Source: a virus
Virus record (IMG/VR): IMGVR_UViG_3300047564_006327
Coordinates: 1 to 49,185 of that record
Direction: 5' to 3' (one strand)
Length of the DNA stretch: 49,185 nt
Below the pieces are notes generated by a model. It was not told the origin of the DNA. It saw nothing but the letters and a program-made list of their open reading frames with translations, and did not search any database. The position numbers and the translations under genes were made by a program. Below, piece by piece: positions 1 through 27,352 of the stretch (position 1 is the first letter of the stretch; every line of letters starts with the position of its first letter).

Positions 1-160
1 TCCTTCTCGCCTTCACTTCGCCGGTAGGCATGAGAAGACAGAGGTAAGTTGTTCTTCCTTCATCCAGGGGAACGACCCGAGTGATGAGCGCGAGTGTCTC
101 ACCCTGACGCTTGAAGATGGGCGTGCCTTCCTTGAAACGGACGATGTCACCGGGTTTCAT
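1..160 (-). CDS. SH3/KOW-like small protein, cut by the window edge
   Basis: Reading from ATG at 160 the frame stays open to the window edge, starting MKPGDIVRFKEGTPIFKRQ. The M-K-P-G-D-[IL]-V start followed by alternating beta-type hydrophobic residues is shared with many small proteins in this window and looks like a small SH3/KOW-type barrel. The 3' end is missing. It lies 7 bp after the stop of the signal-peptide gene upstream and probably shares its transcript. Function is unknown. Confidence 0.7.
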   Translation of the reverse strand, partial: MKPGDIVRFKEGTPIFKRQGETLALITRVVPLDEGRTTYLCLLMPTGEVKARR

Positions 161-167
161 TAGTAAA

Positions 168-1172
168 TCACATCGAGAAATCATCCCACTCACCGGGTTC
201 TTTTCTATCTGCGCATCGACCAGGACCCCAGGCACAAATGTCTTTTTCTTTTTCAATCGGCTCTATGAGATTCCAATTCTCGCTTAAAAGGCTCCTAGAT
301 CCCCAGTCTTGTGCAGCCTCAATAAGCTTCATATAACCTACAAAAACGTTAGAAAGCTGTGTGCGATCAGACTCATAATTTGTGACAAGAAAGACTTCTT
401 CGTTCTTGTTTTTGAGAATAGATTCATCAAGAGGATAAATTGTTACATCTGGTAATGCTCCACCAGCACAATAATCAGCTTGATTTGCAGGACAATAGTT
501 GGGTTTAAACATTGGATGCATTCTCTTGAATTCTCTCTCCATAATGTCTTGCGCAGCTACTCCAGGTAAGCGAGAAGGATTTTCTAGATCAAGTCGCCAA
601 GCCTCGGTAATAAAGGGAAAGTGTGCACCGCCCCCGCGACCAGAAAAACCACCAGATCCAGCACCTCCTCCAAAGCCTCCTGAAAATCCTGATCCTGAAC
701 CCCAATACGTTGTTGAAGGATCTCTAATCATAAGCGTATCTCCTTTGTGTCTTATGACTAGCATGTGATAGCGCTGAAGTGAATTAGAGTCTTTATTCAT
801 AACGGCAAGTTCATATTTGCCAACCTTTAGCATGCGTTTTCCTGTTATTGCCAACGCAATCTCAATGTCAACAAAAGGAAGTGTATTAATAAAATCCAAA
901 TCTTCAACGCTTATTAACCTTTCAACAAGCTCATCATACGTGTGAGCAGTCAAATTTGACGTGTCGCCTCGTTCAAAGAAAGCGTGTAGATCGGGAATTG
1001 ATGCACGTGCTTGAATGCGAAGATCATCAAAATTGATATGTGTCTGTTCTGGTACAATACCCGCAACACCCCCATGATGTGAGCAAGTTCCGCGGCCAGA
1101 TGATTCACTTACTGTTCCATCATTACAAACGGTACCAGCAATAGCAGCTTGTACTAGGAGTGCAAGAAACAT
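168..1172 (-). CDS. Exported protein with DUF3761-like N-terminus and Gly-rich linker
   Basis: A 334-residue protein. Residues 1-12 form a short hydrophobic segment (FLALLVQAAIA) that looks like a signal peptide. It is followed at about residues 13-36 by VCNDGTVS...GTCSHHGGVAG, which resembles the Cys/His pattern of DUF3761 proteins (CxDGT...GxCSHHGGV). A Gly/Ser/Phe-rich low-complexity linker lies near residues 158-185. The C-terminal part has several Cys and no fold I recognise. The family role is unknown, and export to the periplasm or membrane of the infected host is inferred from the leader. A GTGCAA-type promoter lies about 85 bp upstream of its ATG. Confidence 0.8.
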   Translation of the reverse strand: MFLALLVQAAIAGTVCNDGTVSESSGRGTCSHHGGVAGIVPEQTHINFDDLRIQARASIPDLHAFFERGDTSNLTAHTYDELVERLISVEDLDFINTLPFVDIEIALAITGKRMLKVGKYELAVMNKDSNSLQRYHMLVIRHKGDTLMIRDPSTTYWGSGSGFSGGFGGGAGSGGFSGRGGGAHFPFITEAWRLDLENPSRLPGVAAQDIMEREFKRMHPMFKPNYCPANQADYCAGGALPDVTIYPLDESILKNKNEEVFLVTNYESDRTQLSNVFVGYMKLIEAAQDWGSRSLLSENWNLIEPIEKEKDICAWGPGRCADRKEPGEWDDFSM

Positions 1173-1222: not shown

Positions 1223-1247
1223 GAGGTTTTATTTTAGGTTTAACCTC
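1223..1247 (-). other. Inverted repeat in the 5' leader of the exported-protein gene
   Basis: GAGGTT at 1223-1228 and AACCTC at 1242-1247 can pair with a 13-nt A/T-rich loop. The repeat sits a few bases after the expected transcription start of the promoter at 1255-1282, so it would form a 5'-terminal hairpin on the leader. No role is shown. Confidence 0.3.
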
Positions 1248-1315
1248 GTTTTATATCTTACCATGCTCAAGTACTCTTGCACGGGCTCAAAGAAGACAAT
1301 GTCACCCCGTTTCAT
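1229..1315 (-). pseudogene. 28-codon remnant of an SH3-like gene overlapping a promoter
   Basis: An ATG at 1315 opens MKRGDIVFFEPVQEYL and stops after 28 codons, so only the family N-terminus is present. It overlaps the preceding gene by 14 bp, exactly like its two upstream paralogue junctions. A promoter (-35 at 1277-1282, -10 at 1255-1260) now lies inside it. The simplest reading is a decayed tandem copy whose remains host a promoter. A real 28-residue peptide cannot be excluded. Confidence 0.35.
1255..1282 (-). promoter_or_regulatory. GTGCAA-class promoter P1
   Basis: On the minus strand, -35 GTGCAA (1277-1282), a 16-bp spacer, then TGG-TAAGAT with the -10 at 1255-1260. The -35 is preceded by CCC as in other members of the class. 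It points toward the exported-protein gene. Confidence 0.6.
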
Positions 1316-1529
1316 CGTTCCACTCCTCTTCACCTAAGAGTTCATTATAGCCCACTCGCCAGACTTCGGTTCCGACCATGACCTCGTAGGTGAATGATTT
1401 GACAGGTTGACCCATGTGGTCCCGCAGCCAGTCGTAGGTGGCGTTTAGCTCCTTGCCCACGACAATGCCGATCTTTCCGTGGGCACGCTGGTCGGGAATG
1501 TCGAGCTTGACAAGATCACCCAGGTTCAT
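1302..1529 (-). CDS. SH3/KOW-like small protein
   Basis: A 75-residue protein starting MNLGDLVKLDIP, followed by a GKIGIVVGKE turn and a YEVMVGTEVW strand. It belongs to the local M-x-x-GD family. ATG at 1529 overlaps the upstream gene by 14 bp: the upstream TGA stop is read out of frame from the Gly-Asp codons of this protein's GD motif. Its own stop is nested in the same way in the next copy. Function is unknown. A small barrel binding nucleic acid or protein is only a guess. Confidence 0.75.
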   Translation of the reverse strand: MNLGDLVKLDIPDQRAHGKIGIVVGKELNATYDWLRDHMGQPVKSFTYEVMVGTEVWRVGYNELLGEEEWNDETG

Positions 1530-1713
1530 CGATCACCTCCAGGAAGCTCGAGTCACATTCTTCAATGACCTGTCCGTCGAACATGAAGTCAACTGTCGCC
1601 CACGAACCGAAGGCATTTGGAGTATCACGCCAGGGATGCACCTTGACTATCATCACAATCTCTCCGCTGTGGATGCCGATATCCTTGAGACGGGCAAGAT
1701 CACCGGGCTTCAC
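1516..1713 (-). CDS. SH3/KOW-like small protein, GTG start
   Basis: A 65-residue protein starting (GTG) MKPGDLARLKDIG, then GEIVMIVKVHPW and AFGSWATVDFMFDGQ. It is a member of the M-K-P-GD family. The GTG at 1713 is chosen because it gives the family N-terminus and the same 14-bp overlap as the neighbouring copies. The protein ends with an acidic VIDEPG that parallels the NDETG end of the next copy. Function is unknown. Confidence 0.7.
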   Translation of the reverse strand: MKPGDLARLKDIGIHSGEIVMIVKVHPWRDTPNAFGSWATVDFMFDGQVIEECDSSFLEVIDEPG

Positions 1714-2077
1714 TGATCAGCTCCGTGAGGTCCTCGAGGTACCTGCAGGTCGTCCCAAAAATATTGCCGTCGCCGAGACAATGGCAAGATGACAGTGATT
1801 CGATACTGACAACCAAGAATGTTCCGGCCCGTCCATCCTTCCAACGGCGAAGCTCGCCTACCCTGACGGGCGTAAAGTCCCAATCCCAAGGATGGAGTGT
1901 GTGGACCACACCGTCGATGTCAGCTCTGGTCCAGTTGTAATCACGGGCGCTACTCTTGCCCGTTACTACACCACTTGTCCCACGCGGGATTTCCACCCTG
2001 TGCCTGTTGCAACGCCGGGTTACCCACGCGATTGCGCGAGAGCCCTTGGGAACTGCGGTGTAGCCTTTCTTGACCAT
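1700..2077 (-). CDS. Small unknown protein containing an SH3-like half
   Basis: A 125-residue protein with a basic N-terminal half (MVKKGYTAVPKGSRAIAW...) and a second half containing VRVGELRRWKDGRAGTFLVV, which resembles the M-x-x-GD barrel of its neighbours. It may be two barrels in tandem. The ATG at 2077 lies 6 bp after a TATAAT -10 box, so its transcript could be nearly leaderless. It is the first gene of the four-gene overlapping run 2077 to 1302. Confidence 0.7.
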   Translation of the reverse strand: MVKKGYTAVPKGSRAIAWVTRRCNRHRVEIPRGTSGVVTGKSSARDYNWTRADIDGVVHTLHPWDWDFTPVRVGELRRWKDGRAGTFLVVSIESLSSCHCLGDGNIFGTTCRYLEDLTELISEAR

Positions 2078-2083
2078 GGTAAC

Positions 2084-2112
2084 ATTATACCCTATGACGG
2101 GTCGGGTTGCAC
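2084..2112 (-). promoter_or_regulatory. GTGCAA-class promoter P2
   Basis: Minus-strand GTGCAA (2107-2112), a 17-bp spacer, then TATAAT (2084-2089). Only 6 bp separate the -10 hexamer from the ATG at 2077, so the start site should fall at or next to the start codon. Confidence 0.65.
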
Positions 2113-2124
2113 GTGATCGATCAC

Positions 2125-2799
2125 TCAGATCTCCAGCACGTTCCCGTGGCTCGTGACCACGCCCATTCGACCGTCGTCACAGCAGGACCCGTTGCTGAAG
2201 ATCGTGAGCATACCAGACACCGTCCGCGTTCCTGCATTGCGGATGTCATCAGTCGAGTGGACATGCCCGAAGAGCATGAACCGGGGTGGGACCTTGACGA
2301 CACGCTTCCGGAGCGCACTGCAGCCCACGAGCTCCACCTTGTTGTGCTGGGCATAGGTGGCATCGAGGACACCGTAGGGTGGGCCGTGCGTGATCAGGAT
2401 GTCGAGCCCCTCAGGAATCTCATCCCAGAGCCGGTTGATCGTCCCGCGGTCCTTCATGTAGGACCAGTCACCGTAGCGTGGCGTGAATGGGCTGCCCCAG
2501 ATCCGCAGTCTCTCGATCGTCTTCTCCTCGTTGATGAGGAGGTGGATCTTCCGGTGCTCGATCAGGTCACGGGTGATGAGTCCCTTCTCCAGAGATGTAT
2601 CGTGGTTTCCTGGGACGAAGACCTTGTGGGGAATCGGGAGCGTGGCAAACCAGTCGATGAAGGCACGGAGTTCCGACTCGTTACGATACGGGTCCCGCCA
2701 GTTGGAGGCATCACCGCTGTGGATCACCATGTCGATCCCATCGGGAATGACGAGCTGGTCGTGGTTCATGTGAGTGTCTGAGATGTGCCAGATCTTCAT
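2125..2799 (-). CDS. Calcineurin-like metallophosphoesterase
   Basis: A 224-residue protein with the full dinuclear-metal motif set: ISDTH (residues 6-10), SGDAS near 29, PGNHD near 64, ITHGPP near 136 and FGHVHS near 172. This is the metallophosphoesterase fold, closest in layout to small MPPED/YfcE-type enzymes that cleave phosphodiesters or phosphomonoesters. The substrate cannot be read from sequence. ATG at 2799 overlaps the upstream SH3-like gene by 4 bp (ATGA). It is one of two phosphoesterases in the window and differs from the second in size and spacing of motifs. Confidence 0.9.
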   Translation of the reverse strand: MKIWHISDTHMNHDQLVIPDGIDMVIHSGDASNWRDPYRNESELRAFIDWFATLPIPHKVFVPGNHDTSLEKGLITRDLIEHRKIHLLINEEKTIERLRIWGSPFTPRYGDWSYMKDRGTINRLWDEIPEGLDILITHGPPYGVLDATYAQHNKVELVGCSALRKRVVKVPPRFMLFGHVHSTDDIRNAGTRTVSGMLTIFSNGSCCDDGRMGVVTSHGNVLEI

Positions 2800-2996
2800 T
2801 GTGTTTCCTCAAGCGGCTTTAGATTGCGTCGTGTCGTGGTTCGTGTCTCACCGCCGACCAGAATAATATAGTCAAGCTCACGTTCCCGAGCGAGTGGATA
2901 CTCCTTGGGACGAATCTCAAGCAAGATCCCGATTGGATAGGGGACAGTCGAATTGCGCCGACGCAGTGTGTATTGCACAAGGTCACCGGGTTTCAT
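2796..2996 (-). CDS. SH3/KOW-like small protein
   Basis: A 66-residue protein starting MKPGDLVQYTLRRRNS, then IGILLEIRP and DYIILVGGETR strands. It is a member of the local M-K-P-GD family. It is first in the transcript from promoter P3, 19 bp downstream of the -10 box, with GAGGAG ahead of the ATG, and it is translationally coupled to the phosphoesterase by an ATGA overlap. Confidence 0.75.
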   Translation of the reverse strand: MKPGDLVQYTLRRRNSTVPYPIGILLEIRPKEYPLARERELDYIILVGGETRTTTRRNLKPLEETQ

Positions 2997-3015: not shown

Positions 3016-3043
3016 ATCATACCACATTCGAGTCGTCTTGCAC
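3016..3043 (-). promoter_or_regulatory. GTGCAA-class promoter P3
   Basis: Minus-strand CCC-GTGCAA (-35 at 3038-3043), a 16-bp spacer, then extended TGG-TATGAT (-10 at 3016-3021). It partly overlaps the 3' end of the preceding SH3-like gene and drives the SH3-like and phosphoesterase pair. Confidence 0.65.
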
Positions 3044-3232
3044 GGGTGACACGAGCTCCAGGCCGCCCACAGTCATTGTCATAATGTTTCCGCGGGATGT
3101 GAGCACATGGTACATGCTACCCATCTTTAGACCACCCACATTCTCGTGTGTCACCTTTATGATGATCCCATTGTGCTGCATTCCTTTTGGGACCGCAGGT
3201 GTCCAGAACCTGACCAGGTCACCCACGTTCAC
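3017..3232 (-). CDS. SH3/KOW-like small protein, GTG start at 3232
   Basis: A 71-residue protein starting MNVGDLVRFWTPAVP, followed by NGIIIKVTHE and GNIMTMTVGGLEL strands. The frame also opens at GTG 3247, but GTG 3232 gives the family N-terminus, a GTGA 4-bp overlap with the upstream gene and an SD GAGGAG 5 nt upstream, so I prefer 3232. It is another M-x-x-GD family member of unknown function. Confidence 0.7.
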   Translation of the reverse strand: MNVGDLVRFWTPAVPKGMQHNGIIIKVTHENVGGLKMGSMYHVLTSRGNIMTMTVGGLELVSPVQDDSNVV

Positions 3233-3471
3233 TTGATCTCCTCGCACTCATAGGCCCAGACGTAACCGGTCTTTCCACCGACAAGGACACGCATGTAGGA
3301 GTCCATACCTGGACCGTCGTCCTTGTGGGCATTGAGTACTTCCAGGATCAGGACGATCGTCCCCGGTGGGTACTCAACGTCACCAAGCGTGTTCGGGGCA
3401 TCAATCTCTGGGACCAGCTTGATAGTTTGACCCATCCAGCTGGACAACTTGACGATGTCGCCTGCTTTCAT
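3229..3471 (-). CDS. SH3/KOW-like small protein
   Basis: An 80-residue protein starting MKAGDIVKLSSWMGQ, then GTIVLILEVL and YMRVLVGGKTGYVW. It belongs to the local M-x-x-GD family, with a slightly longer insertion after the first strand. It sits between an acidic small protein gene upstream and another family member downstream. Function is unknown. Confidence 0.75.
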   Translation of the reverse strand: MKAGDIVKLSSWMGQTIKLVPEIDAPNTLGDVEYPPGTIVLILEVLNAHKDDGPGMDSYMRVLVGGKTGYVWAYECEEIK

Positions 3472-7212: not shown

Positions 7213-7398
7213 TTAGTCGATAGCGTGCTGTGCAACTTCAACTGCGAGCTTGAAGACCTTTGTGCGGATCACTCGGGCTTCCTCACGTGTCACGCGGACC
7301 TTACCGTCTGCGTCCTTCTTGAGTGCTTCTGAAATTGCCTTTACAAGATCGATCGCCTCGGGCGCGATGTCGATCAATTCGTCTGGTGTTAGTGCCAT
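7213..7398 (-). CDS. Small helical protein downstream of endolysin
   Basis: A 61-residue protein predicted largely helical (PEAIDLVKAISEALKK, REEARVIRTKVFKLAVEVAQ) with no membrane segment. GGGAGG is placed 6 nt from ATG 7398, and a GATAGATA box ends 16 nt upstream. Short helical proteins of this kind occur beside phage lysis genes, but I recognise no specific family. Confidence 0.7.
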   Translation of the reverse strand: MALTPDELIDIAPEAIDLVKAISEALKKDADGKVRVTREEARVIRTKVFKLAVEVAQHAID

Positions 7399-7414
7399 GT
7401 CTGCCTCCCAAGAA

Positions 7415-7422
7415 TATCTATC
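7415..7422 (-). promoter_or_regulatory. GATAnnTA box (GATAGATA)
   Basis: It ends 16 nt before ATG 7398, with GGAGG starting about seven bases after the box. Confidence 0.55.
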
Positions 7423-8124
7423 TCACACAATCTTGACACCGCGGACTGTGAGCGGTGTATTTAGCTCCCAATTGCCTGACCGCGCAATTTCGTTGAAGGA
7501 GTCCATGCGGTACACTGTCCGCTGAACAAGTGGATTCTTGTTGGCTGCAAGCCACTCTCTACGTGCCTTGATGTAGGCAAGGACCCAAGCCTTCTCATCG
7601 CCGCCATTACAGGGTGCAGGTTCTGCGAATCGAGCACGGATGATTGCCACCCCGCCGCTGCCACTGTGGATACATGTGTCATAGACAACGAGTGCGCCAA
7701 GCCCGGTCTGCAAGCCGATACGCTGGACATGACCCATCGCAGGCACCCAATAGTTGGCATCAAACACCTCGTCTTGAGCAGCTTGCATGACAGGGTCCTT
7801 ACCGGCTTCTTTCAGGACACCCATCAGGTACTTCGCCCAGGACGGAACGTTCTTAGGGTCCAGCTTCGCAGTCTCATTCAGCGCAAGCTTTGGGACGAAC
7901 TGCTTGAGTTCCTCACCATACTTACCGCCCTTGGCGATGTACAGGTCGACGATCTTGTCAAGAGAACCCGACCTGTCGGTTGATTGGTGCTTACCATAGC
8001 TGATACCTGCGCCATCTGTCAAAATTGCACATGTTGAATACGCGCTGGGTGTAGGAACTTTACCTGTCTCAAAGATCGACAGGACTGAATCGATCACTTT
8101 CTTCTGAGAATCGCTTACTGGCAT
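7423..8124 (-). CDS. Chitosanase/lysozyme-like hydrolase, endolysin candidate
   Basis: A 233-residue protein. Residues ~10-50 contain FETGKVP and then ILTDGAGISYGKHQST, a pattern resembling the GH46 chitosanase/lysozyme-like fold (an acidic residue on the first helix, then D-G-x-G-I-[ST]-Y-G). FDANYWVPAM and LGALVVYDTCIHSG follow in the helical lobe. Such phage enzymes cut cell-wall glycans. The family link is by motif memory, and the exact bond is unknown. It has no signal peptide, so a holin would be needed. GGAGG precedes the ATG and a GATACTTA box ends 16 nt upstream, consistent with late expression. Confidence 0.7.
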   Translation of the reverse strand: MPVSDSQKKVIDSVLSIFETGKVPTPSAYSTCAILTDGAGISYGKHQSTDRSGSLDKIVDLYIAKGGKYGEELKQFVPKLALNETAKLDPKNVPSWAKYLMGVLKEAGKDPVMQAAQDEVFDANYWVPAMGHVQRIGLQTGLGALVVYDTCIHSGSGGVAIIRARFAEPAPCNGGDEKAWVLAYIKARREWLAANKNPLVQRTVYRMDSFNEIARSGNWELNTPLTVRGVKIV

Positions 8125-8140
8125 GTGTGCCTCCTGCCAA

Positions 8141-8148
8141 TAAGTATC
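8141..8148 (-). promoter_or_regulatory. GATAnnTA box (GATACTTA)
   Basis: It ends 16 nt before ATG 8124 of the endolysin candidate. Six bases later the sequence reads GGAGG. Confidence 0.55.
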
Positions 8149-8151
8149 CCA

Positions 8152-8601
8152 TCACTTCTTGATCGGTCCGCCTGTGACCCAAGTGTCACATGTCCTCTTT
8201 GAGGCGCACTTAAAGTGGTGCATCTTGCAGTAGCCAAGCTTTCCTGCCTTGATCGTGTCCCATCCCTTCTCACTGGGATCGCCGCCTTCAAGACCCTTCT
8301 CAATGCAATTGAGAGTCTTTGGAGAAATGTCAAATGCTGCACAATTTCCACAAATCATCGACTTCGCCTCAGAGACGGGAATGTCATCCCACATCTCAGC
8401 TTTCTCTTCCCAGAAGTCACCAGGCTTTGCAGGGTTGGCAGGACCGTAACCTAGCTTCTTGATCGCTTTGTTACGGTTCTTTGTGTTGAGGACGGCGTCT
8501 TGTGTTGCCCTAGGACAGGAGTCGCCGTCCTTCTTGTCTTCCTTCACCTTCTCGTTGAGGATGACCTTTCTAATCTCATTGATGATGTATCTGCGTACCA
8601 T
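8152..8601 (-). CDS. Cys-rich protein with N-terminal helical tag
   Basis: A 149-residue protein from ATG 8601 (MVRRYIINEIRKVILNEK). The frame extends to GTG 8616, but the GATAGTTA box would then overlap coding sequence. The N-terminal 18 residues match the recurring tag motif of this phage. The C-terminal half carries paired cysteines: MICGNCAAFD, LNCIEKG, GYCKMHHFKCASKRTCDTW. Seven Cys plus His suggest a zinc or iron-sulfur site. I associate the CxNC...GYC...FxC...RTCDxW pattern with other phage proteins, but their role is unknown to me. Confidence 0.7.
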   Translation of the reverse strand: MVRRYIINEIRKVILNEKVKEDKKDGDSCPRATQDAVLNTKNRNKAIKKLGYGPANPAKPGDFWEEKAEMWDDIPVSEAKSMICGNCAAFDISPKTLNCIEKGLEGGDPSEKGWDTIKAGKLGYCKMHHFKCASKRTCDTWVTGGPIKK

Positions 8602-10049: not shown

Positions 10050-10565
10050 TCAGGTCAGTGTATCAACTTCTGACATCTTGATTAGACGCTTATGTCGATC
10101 CCAGGCGACGTTGAAATGACCTGGAATGTTGGGTCGATCATCATGGATGTGACCGTGGATGACGAGCTTTGGCTTGATCTGCTCCACGAGGTTGATCACG
10201 TCAGTGTTCATGCTGGTAGCAGGCTTGTGGATGAACAGCTTGTCACCGACTATGAGCCAATCATGGACGTCGGCGAAGCCTGCTGCCTTGTACCAGCCGT
10301 CAGTCTGGTGGTCGTGGTTTCCTCGGATCAGGGTCTTGTGCCCACGTAGACGCATGATCAGGGCGCCGAGCGCCTCATAGCGACCCATCACACCCGCAGA
10401 GAGATCACCGACCAGGATCACACGGTCTGCGTCAGCCACAGTGCTGTTCCATGCGCGGACGATGTCGTCGTTCATCTCGTACTCGTCAGCGTGTGGTCGA
10501 CCGCAATAGACAATGATGTTCTTGTGGAACAGATGCAGGTCTGACGTAATCCAGGTCTCAGGCAT
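10050..10565 (-). CDS. Metallophosphoesterase (COG4186-like)
   Basis: A 171-residue protein from ATG 10565 (MPETWITSDLHLFHKN). The longer frame to 10661 only adds an Arg-rich tail overlapping the previous gene. It has metal motifs SDLHLFH, VGDLSAG, RGNHD, FIHKP and HGHIHDD. The SDLHLFHKNI start and GNHDHQTDGWYKAAGF are typical of the small COG4186 phosphoesterases. The substrate is unknown. The start overlaps the upstream stop by 8 bp. Confidence 0.85.
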   Translation of the reverse strand: MPETWITSDLHLFHKNIIVYCGRPHADEYEMNDDIVRAWNSTVADADRVILVGDLSAGVMGRYEALGALIMRLRGHKTLIRGNHDHQTDGWYKAAGFADVHDWLIVGDKLFIHKPATSMNTDVINLVEQIKPKLVIHGHIHDDRPNIPGHFNVAWDRHKRLIKMSEVDTLT

Positions 10566-10788
10566 TCTTCTTCCTCTTCTTGGGTTGATCTGTGAGGATT
10601 GCAGCTGCGCAAGCCTGCGCATCCTCGAGTGTCTTGAATCGGGACGCCTGGTGTGGTCCAAGCGTCAGTGTGAAGCCTTCAGTCTGACCGAACGTGTGAA
10701 TCGTCACATCTTCGTACCTGTCAGTTGCAGTTGCCAGTGTCCAGATCGTGATACCGCTCTCAAAACTACCTTCATGCTTCCAGTTCAT
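10558..10788 (-). CDS. Small unknown protein
   Basis: A 76-residue protein from ATG 10788 (MNWKHEGSFESG), with GAGGT 4 nt upstream. The GTG at 10794 is a weaker alternative. It has a beta-type middle (ITIWTLATATD), an Ala-rich helix (EDAQACAAAIL) and a Lys-rich tail (PKKRKKNA). It is first in the transcript from promoter P4 and coupled to the phosphoesterase gene. Confidence 0.65.
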   Translation of the reverse strand: MNWKHEGSFESGITIWTLATATDRYEDVTIHTFGQTEGFTLTLGPHQASRFKTLEDAQACAAAILTDQPKKRKKNA

Positions 10789-10803
10789 CGCCACCTCGAC
10801 TAC

Positions 10804-10831
10804 ATTATAACACAGTTTATCGTGGTTGCAC
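10804..10831 (-). promoter_or_regulatory. GTGCAA-class promoter P4
   Basis: Minus-strand CCC-GTGCAA (-35 at 10826-10831), a 16-bp spacer, then TG-T-TATAAT (-10 at 10804-10809). The ATG at 10788 follows 15 bp later with an SD between. Confidence 0.7.
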
Positions 10832-10834
10832 GGG

Positions 10835-11002
10835 TCACTCGTCGATGCTTAGGTCACCTAGGCGATCGTAGTCAGATCGAGTCACACGCTTAGTAGCGAC
10901 GAAGTCACAGCAGAAGATGTAGGTGGCGTAGCTGATCAGGACGTTCTCAGCGAATACAGACGCCCAGAGCAGACGCTGCTCCAGTATTGCACTCTTTTCC
11001 AT
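10835..11002 (-). CDS. Small unknown protein
   Basis: A 55-residue protein from ATG 11002 (MEKSAILEQRLLWASV), with a moderately hydrophobic middle (SYATYIFCCDFVATK). The frame stays open to 11164, but that extension has no SD and looks non-coding. The SD for 11002 is weak. No family is recognised. Confidence 0.5.
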   Translation of the reverse strand: MEKSAILEQRLLWASVFAENVLISYATYIFCCDFVATKRVTRSDYDRLGDLSIDE

Positions 11003-11015
11003 GACACACCCCACA

Positions 11016-11120
11016 TCAGTGTGATGCGCATGCTTGGGAGAGCATGCACGACCGAGAGTTCTGTGTGTCACCTGGGACACCGAAAACGAATTGCTGCGGC
11101 TTAATTGAGCTAATGAGCAT
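11016..11120 (-). CDS. Possible 34-residue peptide
   Basis: ATG 11120 (MLISSIKPQQFVFG...) has a perfect AGGAGG 5 nt upstream and runs 34 codons, ending ACASH. An inverted repeat, GCATGCT/AGCATGC (11028-11034, 11041-11047), lies within it, so the region may instead be a structured leader for the following gene. Coding evidence rests only on the SD. Confidence 0.35.
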   Translation of the reverse strand: MLISSIKPQQFVFGVPGDTQNSRSCMLSQACASH

Positions 11121-11144
11121 GCATACCTCCTGACTATAAATAGG

Positions 11145-11918
11145 TCAGTCAAAAGTGCGTGCACTCGGCAACGTCAACTTAGTCCATGCTATCAGGTGAT
11201 TGTAGGCCTCATCGTACTCTGCTTCGTTCAATGCATTCGCCGCCTGGAGATGATCGAGGTATCTAACAAGGACCTCATCGACGGTGCAGCGACGTTTCTT
11301 CGCCTCGTAGTATATACCTTGCGTGATTGGGCCCACTTCCTCGTAGCATGTCAAATAGCTGAAGATATTACCATCAATTGACCGATTTAAGCGGTCGACT
11401 TCCTCACGCCCCCACGAGTCTAGAGAATCGTAGCATTCACTGAACACCTTAGCGCGTAAGTTCAGAGTGTGCACTATCTTTCCCCACTTTGGAACATGGG
11501 GGACTAAATTGCGTTGTGGTGGCGCCAGACCTGCCAACGCGCCCTCATCAGAGATGTGCTCAATCTCGTGTCTAATGCTGCCACACAACTCATAGTACAT
11601 GTCCGACAGGTGATCCTTTCGGTTGGGATTGTGGTGGATCTCAACTTCAATGTGACTATTTCCAGTGTCATCTGCCCAGACAGACGCGAAGACGTCATAA
11701 CCTTTGCGCTTCCTGCGCACAACTTTTAGATTTACGTCAAATCCAATTGCTGTCGCAGGATTTCGTGGGATTTCTCCCCGCGCGCGGTCCCAAAGATAAT
11801 AGTAACCGGGCGCGGGGAGAGTTGTCTTAAACCGCCGCTGGTCAACGCTTCCGACCAGCGTGTGCATAATATTTCGTGAGACTAACCTAACAAGAGACCT
11901 GTACTTTCCACGAGGCAA
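11145..11918 (-). CDS. HExxH zincin-like protein
   Basis: A 257-residue protein with a basic start. Near residue 117 it carries SIRHEIEHISDEG, an HExxH zinc-metallopeptidase signature preceded by a long helix (MYYELCGSI) as in zincins. A third ligand is not obvious; candidates lie in the helices after 150. The substrate is unknown, and the C-terminal third is helical (YLDHLQAANALNEAEYDEAY). It abuts the Nudix gene with no gap. Confidence 0.65.
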   Translation of the reverse strand: MPRGKYRSLVRLVSRNIMHTLVGSVDQRRFKTTLPAPGYYYLWDRARGEIPRNPATAIGFDVNLKVVRRKRKGYDVFASVWADDTGNSHIEVEIHHNPNRKDHLSDMYYELCGSIRHEIEHISDEGALAGLAPPQRNLVPHVPKWGKIVHTLNLRAKVFSECYDSLDSWGREEVDRLNRSIDGNIFSYLTCYEEVGPITQGIYYEAKKRRCTVDEVLVRYLDHLQAANALNEAEYDEAYNHLIAWTKLTLPSARTFD

Positions 11919-12889: not shown

Positions 12890-13366
12890 TTAACCTCCTC
12901 TCACAGCTTTAACTAGATCAGATGACGACTGGATCTTGCCACCGCCGATGCCGAAGTAGACGTGGCAGCCGATCTCCTGACACAGAATGAACTCAGGCAC
13001 GTTCTGCGCGCTGTCACGATCACCGCCCTTGGTGAAGATTAGCGGGTGGAGGACACCTAACGCTCCAGTCACTGTCTGGCTACCGTCATCCCAACCTACA
13101 ACATAGTCGACTCCACGGACACCTGCGATGATCTCCATCCTCTCGTCGTGAGGCATGAAAGCGAATCCCTTCTTGCGCTGAAGGAATCCGTCACCGTTGA
13201 CGATCACGACAAGGGGAAGCTTGTGGGCTGATGCGACAATTGCGCTCTCCTGCAAACAGCGAAGGTGGCCCACATGCATCGGATCAAATCCTCCACTAGT
13301 GACCACACATCCCTTTACGTCCTGTTGCTTGATGAGATCATAAGGATCTTTATAGATGTGCTTCAT
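12890..13366 (-). CDS. Cytidylyltransferase-like nucleotidyltransferase
   Basis: A 158-residue protein from ATG 13366 (MKHIYKDPYDLI); the frame extends five codons further. The nucleotide-binding HxGH motif appears as GGFDPMHVGHLRCLQES near residue 26, with the later FTKGGDRDS near 111 typical of the RfaE-C/glycerol-3-phosphate cytidylyltransferase superfamily. It should transfer NMP to a sugar or alditol phosphate, which fits the neighbouring isomerase cupin. ATG is 6 bp from a TATGAT box. Confidence 0.8.
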   Translation of the reverse strand: MKHIYKDPYDLIKQQDVKGCVVTSGGFDPMHVGHLRCLQESAIVASAHKLPLVVIVNGDGFLQRKKGFAFMPHDERMEIIAGVRGVDYVVGWDDGSQTVTGALGVLHPLIFTKGGDRDSAQNVPEFILCQEIGCHVYFGIGGGKIQSSSDLVKAVRGG

Positions 13367-13401
13367 AGAAGCATCATACAAAGCACCCAGCTATGTTTAC
13401 A

Positions 13402-13941
13402 TCAACCAGAGAGGTCGTCGCAAGCCCGCTGCTTGAGCAGGTAGTAGTAGCCCTCGTGGTCGTTGGCTATACCACCGATCTGGTCCTCAAGACCCAGTGT
13501 CATTGATCCACACTCATCCAGGTCGCTCTTCATGCACTCGAGGAACTCGATGAAGTCCTTGATGATCGCCATGCCAGCGGCAGCGATGCCAGCAGAGTTC
13601 AGCTTGTTAGGAGATGGGTACGCGCAGATTACCTGCGCTGCGCCAGTCGCGATGTGGCTTGGGCATGCGATGTCTGCACCGCAGAGCCCGATCGCCTTCT
13701 CGATCACACCGTCAATCGCTTCATCCACACCTGTGTAGATCTTGTCGTACAGGAAGGAGTGATCGCCTGAGAAAGAGACACCGCGAGTGATGTGGTGTGC
13801 CCCATGGAACCAGAGGTGGATCGCTCTCATGTAGCAGATCTGAGAGAACATGTAGTTGTAGAGCTTGCCGTCTGTCTCTGGACCGTAGATGTCCATGACG
13901 ACGAAGCCCTGACCTGTCATACGTGGTGTGTCGTGCATCAT
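13402..13941 (-). CDS. Dps/ferritin-like protein
   Basis: A 179-residue protein. Helix 1 and 2 carry RAIHLWFHGAHHITRG and SFLYDKIYTGVDEAIDGVIEKAIGL, resembling the Dps layout (LHWxxxGxxF...L...YxxxxxxxDxxAERxxxLG) with His, Asp and Glu in ferroxidase-like places. It is longer than usual between helices and has several Cys. Dps proteins bind DNA and oxidise iron. The role in this phage is unknown, with protection of phage DNA from oxidation as one guess. ATG is 5 nt from a GATACGTA box. Confidence 0.6.
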   Translation of the reverse strand: MMHDTPRMTGQGFVVMDIYGPETDGKLYNYMFSQICYMRAIHLWFHGAHHITRGVSFSGDHSFLYDKIYTGVDEAIDGVIEKAIGLCGADIACPSHIATGAAQVICAYPSPNKLNSAGIAAAGMAIIKDFIEFLECMKSDLDECGSMTLGLEDQIGGIANDHEGYYYLLKQRACDDLSG

Positions 13942-25750: not shown

Positions 25751-25758
25751 TACTTATC
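25751..25758 (-). promoter_or_regulatory. GATAnnTA box (GATAAGTA)
   Basis: It ends 17 nt before ATG 25733 and overlaps the groEL stop region. GGAG follows the box by about seven bases. Confidence 0.5.
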
Positions 25759-27352
25759 CTGCTGTGGAAGAATCATCCTCAACCAGCGCACAACCAACCG
25801 TGAGCATCATGCCTGCTGCTGAAGCAGCATTCCTCAGCGCACACTTGACGACTCGTGCTGGATCGACGATGCCAAGTTCAAGCATGTCGCCGTATGTGCC
25901 TCGGAAGGCATCATAGACGTGAGTGCTGCTCATCGTGTTGAGAGCATTCTGCACGATCTCTGGCGTTCCGCCGCTGTTAGTGACGATCTGCCTGAAGGGT
26001 GCGAGGCAAGCTGTCTTGACAACCTGGTAACCTGCGCGGACAGGAGTAAAATCACCTTCTGGAAATGGAACTGCTGCCGCTGCTCTCATGAGAGTCGTTC
26101 CGCCACCTGGGACAACACCCTCCTTCATCGCTGCTTGGACTGCGTGGAGTGCATCATCAGCACGATCCTTGCGCTCCTTCAGCTCAGCCTCAGTCGCCCC
26201 TCCGACACGCAGGATTGCCACACCGCCTGAGAGACGGGCGAGGCGTTGCTTTGTCTGTAGGCGCTCACCCTCATCAACTGCTTCAGCGTACTGCTTCCTG
26301 ATCTCTTCGAGTCTTTCGCCTACACGGTCGCGGTCGGCATTAGCACCCACTAGGACTGTCTCAGTGCGACCGATTAGGGCACGTGTGCAAGTTCCAAGGT
26401 CAGTCAGCTGCAGCTTTGACAGCTCATCAGTGTCCGCTGCTGAAAAGACCCGTGTGCTCAGTAGCACCGCGAGGTCCTGCATCTGATCATAGCGACCTGC
26501 GCCCGCGCCCGGCGCGCGGATAGCACAGACATTCAGAGAACCGCGAACTCGGTTGAGGACCAGTGTCTGCATCGCCTCACCGTCGATGTCGTCAGCAACG
26601 ATGAGGAGTGGGCGCTTTGCTGCCAGGCTCTTCTCCAGCAGACCCACAATGTCCTTGATAGACTCAATCCTGCGGTTCAGTAGAAGGACTGCGGGCCTGT
26701 CCATCTCACAGACCATCTTGTCCTGGTCAGTGACAAAGTAGGGTGATGTGTAACCGCGATCGATCCGCGTCCCATCCACGACTGTCAAGCTACTGCTGTA
26801 ACCCTTTGCTTCCTCGACAGTGACGACACCGTCCTCACCCACTGTTCGGATCGCACTCTCGATCAGCTCACCCAAACTCTCCTCACCGTTCGCTGAGATT
26901 ACTGCGACACGGCGGAGGACCTCCGGGCTTCCTGCAGGAACTGCAATGTCATCAATCCTGCTGATGATCTCATCAACTGCCTGGTCGATGCCAGCCTTCA
27001 GGTCTGTGGCCGGAAAACCGCTGAGGACGAGCTTTAGACCTTCACTGAAGATCGCCTGAGTGAGGACTGTCGCGGTGGTTGTCCCATCACCTGCTTCGTC
27101 AGCACTGCGAGAAGCTGCCTCCTTGATCATCTGCGCGCCCAAGTTCTGCAGCTTGTCGCGAAGATTGATCGACTTCGCGACAGTGACACCGTCCTTGGTG
27201 ACGATCGGGTGCTGACCGCGCTGCTCGATCAGGACGTTGCGTCCTCGCGGACCCATCGTTACACGGACAGCGTCAGCCAAAGTATTAACACCCGCGAGTA
27301 GCTTCTCACGAGCAGCTGCATCAAAGACGACCAACTTGTCTGTCTCTTCCAT
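25754..27352 (-). CDS. groEL: GroEL chaperonin (HSP60)
   Basis: A 532-residue protein, close to bacterial GroEL (about 548). It has [16 protein letters not shown] near 30, [16 protein letters not shown] near 85 with the catalytic Asp, [19 protein letters not shown] near 385 with the second catalytic Asp, and [15 protein letters not shown]. The C-terminus ends EDDSSTAG and lacks the GGM repeats. It likely forms a folding ring for virion or replication proteins, perhaps with host GroES, as no phage GroES is visible next to it. It is 1 bp after the 62-residue gene. Confidence 0.95.

Follow-up and report, generated by a model that had tools for sequence, protein, structure and literature searches.

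It has long been asked how phages exchange small genes while keeping the operons around them intact, and at the locus described here the joint between such genes can be read directly. The window, i.e. the whole stretch of DNA that was analyzed, is an IMG/VR virus record of 49,185 bases (IMGVR_UViG_3300047564_006327) in which a row of small overlapping genes, A to D, is read from the minus strand (Table 1). The original prediction, based on the sequence of the window, described SH3-like genes joined by identical 14-bp overlaps and suggested that tandem duplication could add further coupled units. We find that the locus is probably a segment of a shuffled array of gene cassettes, with a coding translational adapter at each joint.

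A start sequence that closes both shifted frames

All three overlaps between A, B, C, and D are exactly 14 bp long, and in each the TGA stop of the upstream gene lies inside the GGT-GAY codons of the M-x-x-G-D motif that opens the next gene, as had been predicted. The similar protein ends pointed out at the same time are present (DEPG in B, DETG in C), but the similarity is forced by the overlap itself, because the same codons are the start of the next gene in another frame. For example, GATGAAACGGGGTGA translated from its first base reads D-E-T-G-stop.

Relatives of the locus were reached by synteny, via the metallophosphoesterase and AAA ATPase that adjoin the array, and further contigs came from IMG/VR pattern scans for two start sequences spaced at gene distance. 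Among 136 genes with the start sequence, the overlap with the previous gene is 14 nucleotides (nt) in 54, 4 nt in 50, and 1 nt in two, with no other overlap length; 24 of the remaining genes follow a gap and six have no detectable upstream gene. The 4- and 14-nt lengths arise from the geometry of the start sequence ATGAARCCNGGTGA, which closes one shifted frame at exactly 4 nt and the other at exactly 14 nt. If the codon after ATG begins with A, a TGA results at 4 nt in one frame (nTGA), and GGT-GA creates a TGA at 14 nt in the other (ggTGA). The 14-nt class is absent among the 21 genes in which Gly4 is coded by GGC, GGA, or GGG. Both shifted frames are closed within 14 nt in 112 of 136 array starts versus 14 of 116 long control open reading frames (ORFs) from the same contigs. 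Three of three overlaps at 14 nt in the window is weak evidence alone, with a chance of about 1/8, because only 4 or 14 nt is possible and the pooled ratio is approximately 1:1 (50:54). The feature that exceeds chance is the start sequence.

The original prediction allowed that unrelated genes or variable overlaps at this locus in related phages would point to coincidence. The relatives carry the same type of gene, and on contigs found by synteny alone 23 of 33 overlaps are 14 nt, but the length does vary, with eight overlaps of 4 nt and two of 1 nt. Prokaryotic gene overlaps are dominated by 4-nt (about 45%) and 1-nt (about 15%) classes (PMC3887535), and in one annotated Vibrio phage stretch used for comparison, overlaps of 4, 1, 14, and 17 nt occur 14, 3, 1, and 1 times, respectively. 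The arrays resemble the prokaryotic overlaps in their coupled same-strand arrangement, and the 4-nt class (ATGA) is identical. They differ in that the 14-nt class is as frequent as the 4-nt class and in that one start sequence accepts either upstream frame.

The joint as a composite signal

The 54 junctions of the 14-nt class share the consensus GGAGGTGATCRRTGAARCCNGGTGATCT, across which the upstream codons read L-E-V-I-[DNSG]-E-[TA]-[RG]-stop. The Shine-Dalgarno stretch GGAGGTGATC, complementary to the 3' end of bacterial 16S RNA, is encoded by the C-terminus of the upstream gene (LEVIDE..). The start codon lies at or before the upstream stop and the ribosome-binding site lies within the upstream gene, which is the structural arrangement of translational coupling, and ribosomes would be expected to reinitiate across the joint. 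In this way coupled units could be added with no need for further start or stop signals, a part of the original prediction that our results support. A 27-nt joint pattern, GAGGTGATCRRTGAARCCNGGTGAYCT, occurs in only seven IMG/VR stretches, each on a contig already known for arrays. In the protein, the start motif runs into the barrel's first strand and LEVI forms its last, and both ends would double as translation signals.

Exchange of neighbors between related phages

The arrays of related phages differ in what stands next to a given gene. One neighbor differs between phages in 36 of 40 ortholog junction pairs, and DNA identity switches at the start sequence. Pairs with a shared downstream gene have an identity of 0.26–0.39 as far as the start codon and of 0.96 across the first five bases; in pairs with a shared upstream gene, identity holds to about +19 and then drops to background. 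Twelve consecutive array genes, with ten 14-nt and two 4-nt junctions, are found in record IMGVR_UViG_3300031857_024892 (164 kb; L018/L029), which holds orthologs of B (12908–13105, 95%) and C (13289–13516, 88%). A second ortholog of B lies in L031 (3009–3200, 66%). At the A/B joint of the window, the left side corresponds to A of L029 and the right side to B of L029, with three intervening L029 genes missing. One further L029 gene is missing at the B/C joint. That gene's overlap with C in L029 is 4 nt, whereas in the window B and C share 14 nt, so a single start sequence has terminated two different upstream genes, each in its own frame. Such a switch between the 14-nt and 4-nt classes is seen in nine pairs with a shared downstream gene. 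The next array gene, which starts at window position 160, behaves similarly, as its identity to L029 begins exactly at the ATG (ATGAAACCCGGTGA).

Genes of other origin may enter as well. L029 carries two genes of 42% guanine-cytosine (GC) content immediately upstream of A (10304–11878), encoding a 232-amino-acid protein of unknown function and a D12 DNA adenine methyltransferase, possibly a restriction-modification pair; both are absent from the window. The window has a 43% GC ORF (168–1172) between D and the next array gene that looks like a foreign insertion in the array. It ends just short of the start sequence at position 160, and insertions, too, thus appear to respect the joints. No relatives of this ORF were found in IMG/VR. 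It has a weak match to DUF3761 and a Gly-rich stretch. As for recombination functions, a RecA-family recombinase was identified in eight of 11 records tested, namely all those of at least 140 kb, and no RecT annealing protein was found in the records tested.

The array proteins

In a profile of 101 members, M1, G4, and D5 are invariant and L6 is almost invariant. B is the one array protein with a confident model, and AlphaFold predicts a five-stranded SH3-like barrel with a predicted local distance difference test score (pLDDT) of 85 (strands 6–9, 19–25, 40–45, 48–54, and 58–60), including the short helical turn before the last strand that is expected of the fold. This model bears out the description of the proteins as SH3-like. 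The top PDB matches of the B model in Foldseek are mostly SH3-like folds and include nitrile hydratase beta, PsaE, Spt5 KOW, Tudor, and PWWP, though they are individually weak (template modeling scores of about 0.5–0.68, best E 0.09). Gene A may encode two SH3-like domains, with its C-terminal half (VRVGELRRWKDG...LTELISEAR) resembling the family, but its structure model is of low confidence (pLDDT 62).

While the predicted fold is like that of KOW, Tudor, and PsaE barrels, the array proteins have no sequence family match. Scans of the 101 members returned nothing below E 0.002 in Pfam or E 0.0025 in PHROG, and nothing consistent across members; weak "transposase" matches of B in these databases (E about 0.007) were judged to be chance. 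The ratio of nonsynonymous to synonymous substitution rates between orthologs is 0.13–0.27 (0.25 for B, 0.20 for C), which indicates that the array genes encode real proteins under purifying selection. They may constitute a changeable set of host-interaction or counter-defense factors.

Distribution of the arrays

Arrays of M-K-P-G-D genes occur on more than 20 IMG/VR contigs of up to 369 kb, with at most 12 genes in a row. The contigs found by pattern scan include records of 200, 257, 278, 284, 298, and 369 kb. Since 14 of 21 contigs tested encode a DNA polymerase 37–98% identical to that of the window, the arrays are a feature of one broad, uncultured phage group. INPHARED phages yielded neither a DNA match to the region nor a tblastn match to C, and only a chance-level match to one other array protein; no close isolate was found, the best isolate DNA polymerase being 29.5% identical. 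Three pattern matches among approximately 85,000 bacterial and archaeal genomes in GTDB fall in unrelated genes and were read as coincidences. We found no description of this arrangement in the open-access literature searched.

Features surrounding the array

D combines an array start sequence (MKRGD) with a decayed copy of the 3' end of a VNVGD-type gene. Window positions 1255–1285 match L029 8547–8577 at 27 of 31 bases (alignment score 23, versus at most 16 in 300 shuffles), and D is a decayed chimera. It had been described as the last copy of the series, a remnant overlaid by a promoter. D is indeed a 28-codon remnant, but it is not the last copy: the low-GC ORF splits the array, and array genes continue from position 160. 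A promoter search over D found none on that strand. A separate 28-codon array remnant is present in L042 (519–605), with its 4-nt and 14-nt joints both intact.

The promoter-like element before A, AACCCGACCCGTCATAGGGTATAAT, is kept ahead of the A orthologs in L029, L022, and L031, though the genes upstream differ. Given its closeness to the ATG of A, the transcript would be leaderless. The metallophosphoesterase gene (2125–2799, minus strand) has array genes on both sides and matches PADLOC model PDC-S10 (2e-61). Elsewhere in the window, a GroEL-type chaperonin is encoded at 25754–27352 on the minus strand (phrog_5725, E 2e-147).

Table 1 Features of the array region in the window.
Feature	Position	Strand	Description
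Next array gene (start only)	1–160	-	MKPGDIVRFKEGTPIFKRQ..., truncated by contig end; ortholog L029 13925–14119
Low-GC ORF	168–1172	-	43% GC, 334 amino acids, signal-peptide-like N-terminus, between D and next array gene
D	1229–1315	-	28-codon remnant starting MKRGD
Junction C/D	1302–1315	-	ATGAAACGGGGTGA, 14 nt
Gene C	1302–1529	-	75 amino acids
Junction B/C	1516–1529	-	ATGAACCTGGGTGA, 14 nt
Gene B	1516–1713	-	65 amino acids, GTG start, predicted SH3-like barrel
Shine-Dalgarno for C, full-length	1531–1540	-	GGAGGTGATC within 3' end of B, codons of LEVI
Junction A/B	1700–1713	-	GTGAAGCCCGGTGA, 14 nt
Gene A	1700–2077	-	125 amino acids, opens its array segment, ends in 14-bp junction
Shine-Dalgarno counterpart for B	1715–1724	-	GGAGCTGATC
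Promoter-like element	2084–2108	-	AACCCGACCCGTCATAGGGTATAAT, directly before ATG of A, single copy in window
Array-type gene MKPGDLVQYTLRRR	2796–2996	-	Upstream group; 20-nt gap to preceding gene, no overlap
Array-type gene VNVGDLVRFW	3017–3232	-	4-nt overlap (3229–3232) with preceding gene
Array-type gene MKAGDIVKL	3229–3471	-	Array-type

Mechanism and alternative explanations

In the reading that we propose, a cassette consists of a single small SH3-like gene. LEVI, the closing strand of the upstream protein, encodes the Shine-Dalgarno sequence for the next cassette, and M-K-P-G-D, the opening strand of the downstream protein, supplies the start codon together with TGA stops in both shifted frames. 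Any upstream cassette joined out of frame would therefore meet a stop immediately and be coupled translationally to its successor. Recombination among phages at the shared joints of 14–28 nt, either homology-driven or merely selected, would add, remove, and exchange cassettes, and foreign genes would also enter the array. We infer that recombination takes place at the joint itself, with the joint used as homology. Several points weigh against this reading. Viable recombinants in a gapless array must join at gene ends, and a switch at the joint is no proof of joint-directed recombination. Selection after random recombination, with only gene-end joints surviving, is therefore a live alternative. 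Similarity of the start sequence is in part a protein constraint, as M-K-x-G-D is a common SH3 first strand, and the ortholog pairs are not independent of each other. Simple ORF rules were used to assign both gene starts and upstream genes, and several contigs were found with a pattern containing GGT; the contigs found by synteny alone agree, however. We also considered that the overlap class follows the upstream gene, but this is a trend only (concordance of shared-upstream versus shared-downstream pairs, p 0.15).

It is quite possible, although we would not call it probable, that geometry accounts for everything, i.e. M-K-x-G-D starts are common in SH3-like proteins, overlaps are a by-product of dense packing, and exchange is ordinary mosaicism that respects gene ends. 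The pooled 54:50 ratio is as expected if the upstream frame were freely chosen, and a second codon beginning with A yields nTGA anyway. Codon use at Gly4 can be read both ways: 76% of 4-nt joints retain GGT although nothing there requires it, but ascertainment bias is possible. We treat this enrichment as weak because GGT already accounts for 57% of Gly codons before Asp or Glu inside array genes and because the search pattern contained GGT. Geometry does less well with the conservation of the full Shine-Dalgarno sequence plus start and with the restriction of the 27-nt pattern to these phages. In addition, 14-nt joints dominate 23:8 in the close lineage, which suggests that the joint is passed on whole. 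Selection for translational coupling and equal dosage alone, with exchange incidental, would fit the uninterrupted same-strand runs, but we consider it unlikely; 4-nt overlaps are equally good for coupling, and this explanation does not account for unrelated upstream genes with different end frames meeting the same start sequence. Least probable is in-place tandem duplication, in which a gene is copied with its overlap beside itself and the copies diverge. The start motif and fold type are common to all members, and L051 provides a clear case in its true tandem copies (7222–8552 in reverse-complement locus coordinates; 54–66% identical). One pair there is fused into an in-frame double gene that retains an internal MKPGD (7500–7991), a third reading-frame outcome; we rejected such fusion as a common outcome, as L051 is the only clear case. 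As the main process, duplication is at odds with the relatives, in which entire genes have been deleted or inserted and contexts exchanged at the joints. Neighbors in the window and in L029, such as B and C, have no detectable similarity beyond the start motif, near-identical orthologs sit beside other neighbors in other phages, and the present pairs suggest that nearest relatives are hardly ever array neighbors.

Relation to known systems and implications

Integron cassettes form a row of exchangeable small genes with a common joining element, a description that also fits the arrays. However, overlaps of 4–14 nt leave no room for an attC-like site after each gene, and no att-like intergenic site was seen in the gapless arrays (a search for an integrase was not made). 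The nearest precedent would appear to be the PeSL of T4-type phages, promoter-terminator units regarded as shuffling points (Arbiol 2010, Comeau 2014, as cited in PMC4503421). Both systems involve a short composite signal for expression that recurs between small genes and is proposed to enable shuffling among related phages, and the arrays do carry a repeated element at the borders of exchanged genes. PeSL signals are transcriptional, judging by the cited titles, whereas the array signal is translational and is embedded in the coding ends of the two proteins. The array genes overlap, and no terminator-like or fitting promoter-like site was found near the joints (1229–2077). In lambdoid phages, conserved short flanking sequences have been proposed to mediate module exchange (discussed in PMC2327257). 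The arrays similarly have a short shared sequence at module borders that could be a substrate for homologous recombination, but in the arrays it is overlapping gene ends that form the borders, and a single genome has many of them in tandem.

The array joint combines a ribosome site, a start, and a two-frame stop, and related phages offer natural before-and-after pairs of its use. A testable rule follows, in that array overlaps must be 4 or 14 nt. More tentatively, and somewhat short of an even chance in our estimation, the two end motifs of one small fold may act as a universal frame-independent gene adapter, such that genes could be joined in any order via approximately 28 shared nucleotides and the phages could maintain an open-ended set of exchangeable genes without an integrase or intergenic signals. 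The arrays add a family of SH3-like proteins in huge phages that had not been described, and they offer a compact principle by which genes can be stacked with tolerance of frame.
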